A DNA stretch of 64,000 bases. It comes from Microbacterium maritypicum MF109 (GTDB taxonomy: Bacteria > Actinomycetota > Actinomycetes > Actinomycetales > Microbacteriaceae). Where the stretch lies: the NCBI RefSeq assembly GCF_000455825.1, contig NZ_ATAO01000206.1:372001-436000 (forward strand), in the 5' to 3' direction. Below the pieces are notes generated by a model. The model was not told the DNA's origin. It saw only the letters and a program-made list of their open reading frames with translations, and ran no database searches. Positions 40,644-44,286 of the stretch are shown here, in pieces; position 1 is the first letter of the stretch; the number at the start of each line of letters is the position of its first letter. The position numbers were made by a program, and so were the translations under genes.

Positions 40644-41147
40644 TCAGCCGACCTTGTGGAGCCAGACGACCCTGGCATCGTCGCTGGCATGGCGGAAGGG
40701 CTCGAGCTCCTCGTCCCAGGCGGAGCCGAGGGCGATGTCGAGCTCGCGCTGCAGCTCGACCGCGCTCCCGGCGGCGATCTCCATCGCATAGCGGATGCGG
40801 TCTTCACCGATCACGATGTTGCCGGCGGCATCGGTCTGGGCGTAGTGGATGCCGAGATCGGGCGTATGCAGCCAACGGCCGCCGTCGCTGCGGGGCGTCG
40901 GGTCCTCGGTCACCTCGAAACGGAGGTGCTCCCAGCCGCGAATGGAGGTCGCGAGAGCCGCTCCGGTGCCGACAGGGCCGTCCCAGTAGAACTCCGCGCG
41001 TCGTGCGCCGTCCAGGACGGGCTGCTCGGTCCAGTCGAAGTTCACCGCACGCCCGATAGCGCGACCCACCGCCCATTCGAGGTGCGGGCAGAGCGCGCGA
41101 GGCGCAGAGTGGATGAACACCACTCCGCGTGCGTAAGCCGTCGCCAT
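40644..41147 (-). CDS. DUF3145 family protein
   Basis: 167 residues, cytoplasmic. It begins A-R-G-V-V-F-I-H-S-A-P-R-A-L-C-P-H-L-E-W-A-V, the diagnostic start of DUF3145, and contains Y-W-D-G-P-V-G-T-G-A and W-E-H-L-R-F-E-V-T-E-D. It is confined to actinobacteria and often lies near fab genes. A role has not been established to my knowledge. A GGAGAG ribosome site lies before the ATG. Confidence 0.9.
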   Translation of the reverse strand: MATAYARGVVFIHSAPRALCPHLEWAVGRAIGRAVNFDWTEQPVLDGARRAEFYWDGPVGTGAALATSIRGWEHLRFEVTEDPTPRSDGGRWLHTPDLGIHYAQTDAAGNIVIGEDRIRYAMEIAAGSAVELQRELDIALGSAWDEELEPFRHASDDARVVWLHKVG

Positions 41148-41269: not shown

Positions 41270-41302
41270 CGAAGGCCCCGGTCACGGGGACCGGGGCCTT
41301 CG
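41270..41302 (-). terminator. Terminator of the oxygenase-like gene
   Basis: A perfect 14-bp stem (41270-41283 with 41289-41302) with a 5-nt loop lies 30 nt after the stop of the minus-strand gene ending at 41333. The AT-rich TCATGGAATG follows on that strand. Confidence 0.75.
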
Positions 41303-41332: not shown

Positions 41333-42106
41333 TCAGGCCTCGCTCATGGCCTGCTTGACCTGCTGGCCCTTGGCGGCGTAGTACGCCGCACGAGCGGCGT
41401 CCTTGCGCGCCTGCTCGGCATAGCCGAACTCCAGCGTCTCCTGGTCGACCTCGTAGTTGGGCACATCGTCGGTGCCGTGGTACTTCTCGATGTAGGCATC
41501 GAGCTCCGGGCCCGAGGTCCACGAGGTGATGAGGCAGTAGCGCGGCTCCGTGCCGTTGTGCGTGGCCGCGTGCCAGAGGCGCTGCGTGTCGACGATGAGC
41601 TGCGCACCGGCCGGAAGGGCGATGCGGTACTCGATGCTGGGGTCGGTGCGGTTCTCGCGCAGGACGAAGTAGCTGTCCTTGTCGTCCGTCAGATTGAAGA
41701 AGCCGCGGACCACCCAGCCCGTGCCGTCCGGGTTCAGACGGTTGTTGTCATCCTGGTGCAGGTTGTAGAGGCAGTCGCCGTACGGGGTCGGCTGCAGCTC
41801 GATCACGCGGCAGCGGCCGACGTTGGCACCCGGCTCCTGCGCGCGGCGCGTCAGGTTCGGGGCCTTCTCGGTCTGCGAGTCGATCCAGACGCCATCCTTG
41901 TCGGTGCGCGGCGGCTTGTGGTTCCAGAAGCCGTTGCACTCGATGTCACCGAAGGCACTGGCGAGAGGGGCGAAGCGGGTGTCACCCGACGACTTCCAGT
42001 CGTTGTACTCGATGTCGAGCCATTCCTTGGGGTCGAGCTCCTGGTTGTAGCTGTCGAGGACGACGAATCCCTTTTCCTCGAGGGCAGCGGACTTGATGTA
42101 ACCCAT
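41333..42106 (-). CDS. Uncharacterised protein with Fe(II)/2-oxoglutarate oxygenase residue set
   Basis: 257 residues with no signal peptide. I do not recognise a named family. The facial triad and 2OG anchor can be read: His117 and Asp119 in L-H-Q-D-D, His179 in L-W-H-A-A-T-H, and Arg189 in E-P-R-Y-C-L-I-T-S-W. The spacings (62 from first to second His, 10 from His to Arg) are close to those I recall for prolyl hydroxylase PHD2. The middle region (V-V-R-G-F-F-N-L-T, F-V-L-R-E) fits strands of a double-stranded beta-helix. The C-terminal ~50 residues are a charged helix. GAAAGGAAC lies 12-20 nt before the ATG. The promoter region overlaps a partial DtxR/IdeR-like box. The substrate is unknown; a GmrSD-like nuclease gene is divergent 176 bp away. 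Confidence 0.72.
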   Translation of the reverse strand: MGYIKSAALEEKGFVVLDSYNQELDPKEWLDIEYNDWKSSGDTRFAPLASAFGDIECNGFWNHKPPRTDKDGVWIDSQTEKAPNLTRRAQEPGANVGRCRVIELQPTPYGDCLYNLHQDDNNRLNPDGTGWVVRGFFNLTDDKDSYFVLRENRTDPSIEYRIALPAGAQLIVDTQRLWHAATHNGTEPRYCLITSWTSGPELDAYIEKYHGTDDVPNYEVDQETLEFGYAEQARKDAARAAYYAAKGQQVKQAMSEA

Positions 42107-42153
42107 GATCGAGTCATGTTCCTTTCATCGGGGGCCAGCACGTTTTAACAGGC

Positions 42154-42172
42154 CCTGATAAGGCAAGCCTAA
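42154..42172. promoter_or_regulatory. Candidate iron-regulator (DtxR/IdeR) box over the oxygenase promoter
   Basis: Read on the minus strand, the 19 bp match TWAGGTWAGSCTWACCTWA at 13 positions; the half AAGGCAAGCCTAA is the stronger. It covers a -10-like TAGGCT (minus strand, 42171-42166). Since TAGGCT itself supplies part of the match, the call is tentative. Confidence 0.35.
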
Positions 42173-42282: not shown

Positions 42283-44286
42283 ATGAGCACCGCGACCAAC
42301 GTCGAGGCGACAGCAGTCAACACGATCGAATGGCTCGCGGCAGGGAGCACGACCATCGTCGTCCCCGTGTATCAGCGGCAGTACCGGTGGGACATCGGCG
42401 GCTGCGAACGTCTCCTCTCCGACATCCGCGCGGTCGCCGGCGAAGACGATGCCCACCGTCACTTCATCGGCTCGATCCTGTCCGCCGAAGACGGCTCCGC
42501 AGCCGACTCCGACCTGATCCTCATCGACGGCCAACAGCGCATCACCACTCTCATGCTGCTGGTGGCCGCCCTGCATCATGCGATCCGCGATACCGACAGC
42601 GCCATGGCCGCAGCGCTCGAACGCGTGCTGGTGCGCTCCGACACTCCGGACCGCACCAAGCTGCGCCCGCACGATGCCTGGGCCGACCTGTACGAGTCCG
42701 TGGTCCTGGATCGACGCGATGACGCCGACCGAGAGTCGCGCTTCGACGACAACTACGCCTTCTTCCGCAGCCAGATCCACGTCGACGAGGTTCCGGCCAT
42801 CTGGCGCGGGCTGCAGAAGCTCGAGCACGTGTCGATCACCCTCGGCGCGCAGGCGAACGCACAGCAGATCTTCGAGAGCCTGAACTCGACGGGCGAGCCG
42901 CTGCGCGACCACGAGCTCATCCACAACTACATCCTGATGGGGCTCAGCCACGCGGAACAGGTCGACGTCGAGGCCCGGTTCTGGGTTCCGATAGAACGGC
43001 ACACCGGCGAGGCGATCGGTGCCTTCTGGCGGCACTACCTCGTACTCGTCACCGGACGCGAGGTCGCCGCGAACGGCGAGCACGGCGTGTACAGCGCCTT
43101 CCGGCAGTCGTTCCCGCGCGTCGACGTCGACCATCTGCAGGCGGACGCGGCCGAGTGGCGGCACTACGCCGAGATCTACGGCACCCTGCTGGATCCGTCG
43201 CGGGAGCAGGACCCGGAGATCGCGCGGCAGCTGCGCCACGTCAACACGTTCGGCCGCTCCTCTTACCCGCTCGTGATGAGCGCTTACAGCGATCATCTGC
43301 GCGGCGTGATCGACCGCGCAGAGTTCGTCGAGACGTTGGAGTGGTTGCAGGCCCTCTCCCTCCGCCGCGCCCTCGTGAACCTGCCCGCGGAGAGACTCGT
43401 CGCCAGACTGTGCCGAGCGCGCCGCGACGGTCGCGATGCGCTCGCCCGGGCGTTCGCGCGCATCACGCCCTCCGACGAGCGCGTCAGTGCGGTCGTGAAG
43501 TACAGCGAGCTCCCCCACCCCGCGTATGTGCTGGGACGGCTCGAAGGTGTCGACGACGTCGACGACTTCGACGTCGAGCACATCGTCCCGACCGTACCCG
43601 GAGATGCGTGGTCGGGCGACGGGGAGCGATCGTGGATCGACTATTCCGAAGACGAGCAGAACAGCCACCGTGCCCTCGCTCCGACCCTCGGCAATCTGAC
43701 CCTGCTCGAGCAGTCGCTGACGGAGCGGGTGTTCGGTGCCTCCTTCCCCGTCAAGCGCTCGGAAGCCTACGCGCACAGCTCCGTGCCGGCCACGCGCGAT
43801 CTCACCGACCTCGGCTCCTGGAACACGGCGGCGATCACCCGCCGCACGATCGCGCTCACAGCCGACCTCATCCGCATCTGGGCGCGCCCCGCGCTGCCGG
43901 AGATCGATGACGACGGCCTGACGCCGATCCTCGATGCGGTCCGTCGCCGCGGATGGCCGACGGGCTGGGAGCGGGAGTTCGATTACGTCGAGTATCGCGG
44001 TGAACGATGGGAGGTTCCCGACGTCAAGTATCTGTTCAATCGGGTCTTCCGTCGCGCCTGGACCGACACGAGAGAGGCCGCCCTGGCGTACTGCGCCGCG
44101 CACGGCGGTCCGATCTACCAGGACATGGCCTGGAAGGGGCAGTGGGATGAGCTCGACGAGGGTCATTTCCTCTACATGGGCTGGGATTCCAACTACATGA
44201 TGACCGCGGTGCAGGGCGTGCTCGAGGAGTCGGGCATCGCCTCGGAGGTCTTCGTCAAGTACTCCTATATCGGAAATGTGATGTGA
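42283..44286 (+). CDS. DUF262-DUF1524 protein (GmrSD-like type IV restriction candidate)
   Basis: 667 residues. The N-terminal DUF262 (ParB-like nucleotidase) has V-P-V-Y-Q-R-Q-Y-R-W (28-37) and I-D-G-Q-Q-R-I-T-T-L (about 81-90). The C-terminal DUF1524 His-Me nuclease has D-V-E-H-I-V-P (about 430) and N-L-T-L-L-E-Q-S-L, then F-P-V-K-R-S-E-A-Y. GmrS and GmrD of E. coli cut glucosylated-cytosine DNA and are NTP-dependent; this fused form is typical. After the nuclease is an extra ~100 residues (565-667: W-E-V-P-D-V-K-Y-L-F-N-R-V-F ... M-A-W-K-G-Q-W) that I cannot place. Base composition matches the surroundings. It overlaps the following hydrolase gene by 4 bp. Confidence 0.88.
   Translation: MSTATNVEATAVNTIEWLAAGSTTIVVPVYQRQYRWDIGGCERLLSDIRAVAGEDDAHRHFIGSILSAEDGSAADSDLILIDGQQRITTLMLLVAALHHAIRDTDSAMAAALERVLVRSDTPDRTKLRPHDAWADLYESVVLDRRDDADRESRFDDNYAFFRSQIHVDEVPAIWRGLQKLEHVSITLGAQANAQQIFESLNSTGEPLRDHELIHNYILMGLSHAEQVDVEARFWVPIERHTGEAIGAFWRHYLVLVTGREVAANGEHGVYSAFRQSFPRVDVDHLQADAAEWRHYAEIYGTLLDPSREQDPEIARQLRHVNTFGRSSYPLVMSAYSDHLRGVIDRAEFVETLEWLQALSLRRALVNLPAERLVARLCRARRDGRDALARAFARITPSDERVSAVVKYSELPHPAYVLGRLEGVDDVDDFDVEHIVPTVPGDAWSGDGERSWIDYSEDEQNSHRALAPTLGNLTLLEQSLTERVFGASFPVKRSEAYAHSSVPATRDLTDLGSWNTAAITRRTIALTADLIRIWARPALPEIDDDGLTPILDAVRRRGWPTGWEREFDYVEYRGERWEVPDVKYLFNRVFRRAWTDTREAALAYCAAHGGPIYQDMAWKGQWDELDEGHFLYMGWDSNYMMTAVQGVLEESGIASEVFVKYSYIGNVM

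Follow-up and report, generated by a model that had tools for sequence, protein, structure and literature searches.

The minus-strand open reading frame at positions 41,333–42,106 of the window (the whole 64,000-nucleotide stretch of Microbacterium maritypicum MF109 DNA analyzed here) is a real gene, as the first-pass annotation had called it, and encodes, from an ATG start, a 257-residue protein that its conservation and its profile similarity to PF05118 mark as Fe(II)/2-oxoglutarate (2OG) oxygenase-like. The four residues expected of such an enzyme are invariant across its family, its catalytic region is remotely homologous to one branch of the PF05118 hydroxylases, and a DtxR/IdeR-type iron box, conserved in orthologs, lies upstream of it. 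We consider it likely, as a whole, that this is a working, divergent PF05118-related Fe(II)/2OG oxygenase that acts on a small carboxylate substrate and is under iron control by DtxR. The iron regulation is a new finding, missed by the first-pass annotation, whose observation is otherwise partly confirmed and whose interpretation is partly supported.

A Solitary Gene and Its Relatives

The protein consists of a core (approximately residues 1–213) and a C-terminal tail of approximately 45 residues; this extra tail is a feature of the proteins of the window's family, the Microbacteriaceae, and is absent in the relatives from other classes that we compared. All 257 residues are 100% identical in named Microbacterium oxydans genomes (tblastn). 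The gene had been described as single-copy in the window; elsewhere in the host genome, on a different contig, there is a paralog of 60% identity. The window copy is solitary, with a DUF3145 gene on one side (40,644–41,147, adjoining downstream) and a divergent gene for a GmrSD-type restriction-like protein on the other (42,283–44,286). In the twenty neighborhoods that we inspected by eye, those of distant members included, the flanking genes look like housekeeping genes, and neither an operon with this gene nor siderophore-synthesis genes were seen.

A scan of species genomes returned 392 stretches that encode a relative, of which 80 were kept. Within the Microbacteriaceae, 51 of 249 genomes carry one; a phylum-wide draw found a relative in 19 of 396 genomes (three from the window's genus and 16 from other classes), and in the class of one distant relative 28 of 100 genomes were positive. 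Two scans of viral contigs and a search of a plasmid collection found no relative. Rows for 17 mycobacteriophage records (tblastn, E 0.4–0.6) were set aside as chance matches, lying mainly, in the one record inspected, within an annotated ribonucleotide reductase gene. Several alignments were built: A1 from 24 chosen sequences, A2 from the window sequence and 70 of the 80 scan loci, A3 from the window sequence and 47 of those loci, and A5, from which the fragment L189 and also L186 are omitted. All nine Microbacteriaceae rows of a 42-row tree form a single clade (100/100) on a long stem, with a long-branch warning from the program.

Invariant Residues Across the Family

His117, Asp119, His179 and Arg189, on which the first-pass annotation had built its case, are placed as it described, with spacings of 62 and 10 residues. 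Counted from the CDS start, the codons of the predicted HxD pair of Fe(II) ligands, His117-Gln118-Asp119, occupy 41,750–41,758 (minus strand, as are all codons given here), with H117 and D119 invariant; that of His179, the predicted third Fe(II) ligand, likewise invariant and aligned with the distal His of the PF05118 protein L159, lies at 41,570–41,572; and that of Arg189, the predicted anchor of the 2OG C5 carboxylate, lies at 41,540–41,542. Arg189 is invariant and stands ten residues beyond the distal His, as R168 does beyond H158 in proline 3-hydroxylase (in an excerpt of PMC9968057).

The motif alone is weak evidence and not unusual: when ORFs with an ATG start and a length of 150 aa or more were scanned in all frames of the window, 19 of 107, the present gene among them, fit the loose pattern H.D-x45-75-H-x8-10-R, many of the ORFs being antisense frames. 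The oxygenase reading carries weight because the residues are conserved in relatives, not because the motif is present. All four are unchanged in every family member that was retrieved, 129 of 129 (80 from the species-genome scan and 49 from three further scans, a set that includes the gene itself and many near-copies) and in 38 of 38 members of a divergent set with relatives down to approximately 40–60% identity, so that a check for homologues lacking them found none in either set. The 38 sequences share 36 invariant columns; of the five histidines of the query, H117 and H179 alone are invariant, and further invariant columns are R98, R100, D119, D120, N121, N122, R123, R134, R176 and R189. 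Two sequence hallmarks of an Fe(II)/2OG oxygenase, the HxD/E...H triad and a basic residue for 2OG after the distal His, are therefore conserved in the homologues.

Remote Homology to Proline and AspH-Type Hydroxylases

The first-pass annotation placed the protein in no named family, and at curated thresholds this holds: the window protein has zero matches in Pfam, NCBIfam, PHROGs or PDB, even at E 10, and the PHROG matches of single members are scattered over nine families (best E 0.029). At the profile level it does not hold. The Pfam family most often touched by members is PF05118 (Asp_Arg_Hydrox), in four of 24 and six of 18 members, always sub-threshold and over the motif region; other touches were to HTH_91 in two of 18 members (E 0.013) and to SoxY in one (0.26). 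The best PF05118 score is E 0.0023 and 18.2 bits against a curated cut-off of 22.6 bits, and because no scanned member reaches that cut-off, we do not count the family as a curated member of PF05118.

Profile-to-profile comparison (hhalign) of the family alignments gave 85–91% with an AspH/P4H-like branch of PF05118, whether against four proteins (L158, L159, L212 and L213), three of them or all ten of a comparison set from the same phylum (ten of 12 loci, the fragments L211 and L215 being omitted). The controls reached at most 1.4%: an LpxO-like PF05118 group gave 0.7%, a seven-member PF13640 alignment 1.4% (best single PF13640 member 1.0%), a reversed alignment 0.13% and three column shuffles 0.04–0.12%. 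A first family alignment had given 77% and 90%, its controls standing at 1.5%, with 0.24% when reversed and 0.04–0.12% when shuffled. The signal needs a profile, because among single PF05118 proteins L159 (52.8%) and L213 (32.8%) stand out and the other eight score 2.6% or less. In the L159 profile alignment H117, D119, H179 and R189 lie opposite H, D, H and R, which, together with the invariance of these residues, supports the Fe(II)/2OG oxygenase reading of the first-pass annotation.

PDB searches with the query or the family profiles returned no credible direct relative; family-profile matches to calmodulin and to an antifreeze protein (E at least 0.14) were dismissed as chance. The four-protein PF05118 branch, searched in the same database, finds L-proline cis-4-hydroxylase (E 8.9e-10), proline 3-hydroxylase 1e5r (entered as “PROLINE OXIDASE,” 1.4e-6), a “Beta-hydroxylase” (7v4f, 2.7e-6) and aspartyl/asparaginyl beta-hydroxylase (0.019 to 0.64). 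Because the family profile matches this branch, whose own profile finds proline hydroxylases in PDB, we read the window protein as remotely related to the free-proline/AspH-type hydroxylases, in a family of its own. Of the two possibilities first raised, an undescribed hydroxylase or a demethylase, the former fits the nearest enzymes by profile, the PF05118 hydroxylases, and nothing that we found favors a nucleic-acid demethylase. Among the matches listed by a search of open-access literature (titles and the starts of abstracts), none describes this family, and none describes a 2OG oxygenase under DtxR control.

The comparison with proline hydroxylases also bears on the substrate. According to the same excerpt, cis-P3H binds Fe through H107, D109 and H158, holds the C5 carboxylate of 2OG with R168 and H124, and holds the carboxylate of its substrate with R95, R97 and R122 (PMC9968057). 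In remote, chained alignments (family to PF05118 branch to 1e5r), invariant R100 falls at the position of R95 and invariant R134 at that of R122; R97 is opposite I102, and E112 has no Glu counterpart, although R97 and E112 in proline 3-hydroxylase also contact or adjoin the substrate. Residue 124 of 1e5r reads Phe and is opposite F136 here (Trp in most distant members). Because R100 and R134 appear to sit where proline 3-hydroxylase grips the substrate carboxylate, the enzyme probably hydroxylates a small molecule resembling a carboxylate or an amino acid.

Two AlphaFold models of Microbacterium-type sequences are of low confidence (mean pLDDT 42.3 and 44.5) and show seven or eight strands in the stretch from residue 96 to residue 197. 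HppE leads the Foldseek list obtained from a low-confidence model, which also includes GGCX, cupin-type isomerases, HEPD and FTO, with proline 3-hydroxylase at rank 40 and PHD2 at rank 43; all rows have E 0.0012 or worse and none reaches 0.001. The VIA rows have Z of 7.7 or less, short of 8, and the absence of proline hydroxylases among the best 50 of them is no evidence against such a relationship. Double-stranded beta-helix or cupin rows top both lists, from models of mean pLDDT below 45; the models would thus agree with a double-stranded beta-helix without establishing it.

An Iron Box Upstream of the Gene

The promoter that had been ascribed to the gene was not borne out, since a simple sigma-70 scan finds none; upstream there is instead an iron-box-like site over a −10-like TAGGCT (42,166–42,171). 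This DtxR/IdeR-type iron box, TTAGGCTTGCCTTA (42,159–42,172, minus strand), was recognized by pattern scan, by its conservation in orthologs and by its agreement with a site in Corynebacterium glutamicum. It is the window's sole site with at most one mismatch to TTAGGNNNNCCTWA, both strands being counted (shuffles average 0.26 matches, and seven of 100 reach two). An excerpt of PMC1382209 gives the C. glutamicum DtxR consensus as TTAGGTTAG(G/C)CTAACCTAA and the relative expression of cg3156 in a dtxR mutant as +304 by RT-PCR; the reverse complement of the window 14-mer lies letter for letter inside the DtxR site of cg3156 given there. Of 110 orthologs, 107 retain at least eight of the ten palindrome positions, against an average of 6.4 when the upstream DNA is shuffled; the lowest score belongs to a locus (L055) that starts inside the box. 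One hallmark of a DtxR regulon, a TTAGG....CCTAA-type palindrome conserved at the promoter, is present.

The box also marks other genes. In the 4-Mb host genome TTAGGNTNNCCTWA occurs five times and its reversed pattern not at all: before the present gene, before the paralog, between genes for siderophore-binding-type and siderophore-interacting-type proteins, and at two other sites (assigned by eye). Both copies of the family in this genome therefore have a box, accounting for two of the five. When 13 genomes of the genus were scanned, the pattern turned up 37 times and its reverse twice, and nine of the 32 boxes that were examined face a member of the present oxygenase family. Others face genes for heme oxygenase, siderophore-interacting protein, FecCD and Peripla_BP_2 (mostly by eye); Pfam bore this out for two Peripla_BP_2 proteins and for a single example each of heme oxygenase, siderophore-interacting protein and FecCD, and gave no match for one further co-boxed secreted protein.

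The natural reading is that an iron-loaded regulator represses the present gene, because the box overlaps the −10-like TAGGCT, and the gene is probably made when iron is short, because the same DNA switch fronts iron-scavenging genes. Two DtxR-type regulators encoded in the host genome score above the PF01325 cut-off, and one of them could be a manganese regulator. The box is kept in two of three paralog promoters (L152 is without it) and in one of 35 distant members, and its absence from the other 34 would make iron control a trait of the lineage. The single distant member with an iron-box-like site (L185) has TTAGGTACTCCTTA at −119 upstream, which may be chance.

Two side observations concern boxes elsewhere. 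At five paralog loci (L156, and also L133, L134, L229 and L231), one iron box is common to the paralog and a divergent gene of approximately 350 aa; the copy of that gene that we tested has no Pfam or PDB match, and it is possibly a second unnamed member of the iron response. At seven loci from several genomes of the genus (L157, L230, L233, L240, L250, L251 and L254), iron boxes were also seen by eye between a trpD-like gene and one resembling cytochrome c oxidase subunit III, a hint that the respiratory chain may be under iron control.

Between the box and the start codon, perhaps in the 5′ UTR, lies a conserved leader stem-loop, GGGCC-TGTTAAAACGTGCT-GGCCC (42,132–42,155, minus strand). In 55 distinct leaders, 98.2% of the cells are paired, and four of the five pairs have changed on both sides (nine cells). 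The covariation score was reached by none of 500 shuffles, a control that kinship of the sequences can inflate, and single-sequence folding is mildly better than that of shuffles (z −0.7 to −2.0). Searched for in 39 genomes of the genus, the exact loop pattern was found once in each of 18, and all 18 matches stand directly before the present gene; no Rfam family comes close to its gathering score on the leader. The stem-loop could act as an RNA element or, alternatively, be a second palindromic operator. A Shine-Dalgarno-like AAAGGA (42,120–42,125, minus strand), recognized by its sequence, lies 13 nt from the ATG, and the start codon falls within a small CATGA/TCATG hairpin (42,104–42,118, predicted RNA fold) of which similar palindromes occur in many orthologs. 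Downstream of the CDS there is a perfect, terminator-like 14-nt inverted repeat with a 5-nt loop (41,270–41,302); as regards the terminator claimed in the first-pass annotation, no T-run follows this repeat when read in the direction of the gene, and it is absent from the results of the terminator scan.

Interpretation and Alternatives

If the reading of the gene as a DtxR-controlled, PF05118-related oxygenase is right, H117, D119 and H179 would hold Fe(II) and R189 would hold 2-oxoglutarate, while R100 and R134 would grip the carboxylate of a small amino-acid-like substrate, the product being hydroxylated. In iron-replete cells iron-loaded DtxR would sit on the −10 and repress the gene; in iron-poor cells the enzyme would be made alongside heme oxygenase and the siderophore-uptake genes. 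Its most likely role, which we suggest tentatively, would be the production or modification of a small metabolite that binds metal or spares iron. A bolder version, which we think improbable as it stands, is that this is a Microbacteriaceae iron-starvation hydroxylase for a small amino-acid-derived metal-binding compound, with no peptide-synthetase cluster adjoining, that the family came under DtxR in this lineage only, and that the private 5′ leader RNA exerts a second level of control.

A narrower form of our favored explanation, possible although we rather doubt it, is that the protein is a functional analogue of PiuC/YbiX, an iron-repressed 2OG oxygenase that arose by convergence and aids the use of siderophores or related compounds. 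PiuC is presumably a member of PF13640 (2OG-FeII_Oxy_3), and comparison with seven such proteins gave the family no profile similarity (1.4%); nor was a transporter gene seen adjoining the present one. The analogy draws its strength from regulation, since the same box fronts the family and genes for siderophore uptake and heme use, and since PiuC is itself a 2OG-type hydroxylase, reported to be a direct Fur target in Pseudomonas (excerpts of PMC9561280 and PMC11878004).

We find it hard to favor the idea that the enzyme is a protein hydroxylase, like AspH or the ribosomal oxygenases, making an iron- or oxygen-responsive modification of a cellular protein. AspH, a protein hydroxylase, does fall within the matched PF05118 group and is found by the profile of that group, and the Microbacteriaceae C-terminal tail, helical in the low-confidence model, could bind a protein. 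AspH is not known to possess the Asp iron ligand, however, whereas D119 is invariant here; the best-scoring solved relatives are free-proline hydroxylases, of whose carboxylate-holding arginines two are apparently kept; and no partner gene was seen adjoining.

It is unlikely that the family consists of non-oxygenase cupin/double-stranded beta-helix proteins (an isomerase, an epoxidase or a metal sensor) that have retained a metal site. In its favor, the likeness of the low-confidence model to HppE, HEPD, phosphoglucose isomerase and cupins is about as close as that to 2OG oxygenases, or closer. Against it stand R189, invariant and placed ten residues after the distal His, where the matched family has its 2OG anchor, and the profile similarity, which singles out one branch of the PF05118 hydroxylases. 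A chance motif in an unrelated protein, an idea encouraged by the loose motif count in the window and by the want of a curated family, was already disfavored and is very improbable given the invariance of the residues across divergent relatives and the controlled profile similarity.

The interpretation of the gene as an iron-controlled oxygenase has several consequences. A single species-genome scan yields hundreds of stretches encoding a relative (the 392 above), yet Pfam, NCBIfam and PHROGs miss the window protein; the iron box is its first functional handle, linking iron limitation in Gram-positive bacteria of the environment to an oxygenase that depends on Fe(II), and the conserved arginines narrow the candidate substrates to small carboxylates. 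If the bolder version above is true, the iron regulator of the genus would have, among its most regular targets, an enzyme that itself requires Fe(II) and possibly serves as an iron gauge.

Comparison With Known Systems

The first-pass annotation had taken PHD2, with its His313/Asp315, His374 and Arg383, as the point of reference. Motif and spacing do agree at the level of the superfamily, and PHD2 appears in the Foldseek list from the low-confidence model at the rank given above, but it is absent from the matches listed by the PDB sequence and profile searches; the proline-hydroxylase/AspH-like enzymes are nearer by profile, and we dropped PHD2 as a model in favor of that branch. With PF05118 as a family the relationship is closer but uneven: members touch its catalytic region and the profiles agree strongly with one branch, whereas members fall below the curated cut-off and the LpxO-like group is dissimilar.

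Among the solved proline hydroxylases, 4p7w (L-proline cis-4-hydroxylase) and 1e5r/1e5s (proline 3-hydroxylase type II) have no direct sequence match to the present protein. By the chained alignments it shares with 1e5r the HxD...H...R set, the final spacing of 10 and a Gly-then-Asp segment ahead of the distal His, but the gap from first to distal His is 62 residues here (H117 to H179) as against 51, and a conserved N-terminal part (W37, G41, G59-F60-W61 and D69) lies outside the matched region. We know of no proline hydroxylase under DtxR control.

For iron control of a 2OG oxygenase, PiuC is the Gram-negative precedent. As we propose for the present gene, PiuC/YbiX, which is of PKHD type, joins a 2OG oxygenase to a master iron repressor; it is tied to siderophore functions (excerpts of PMC9561280 and PMC11878004). 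The two differ in that PiuC/YbiX belongs to another sequence family by the PF13640 comparison, that it is Gram-negative and answers to Fur rather than DtxR, and that the PiuC gene adjoins piuA whereas the present gene is solitary.
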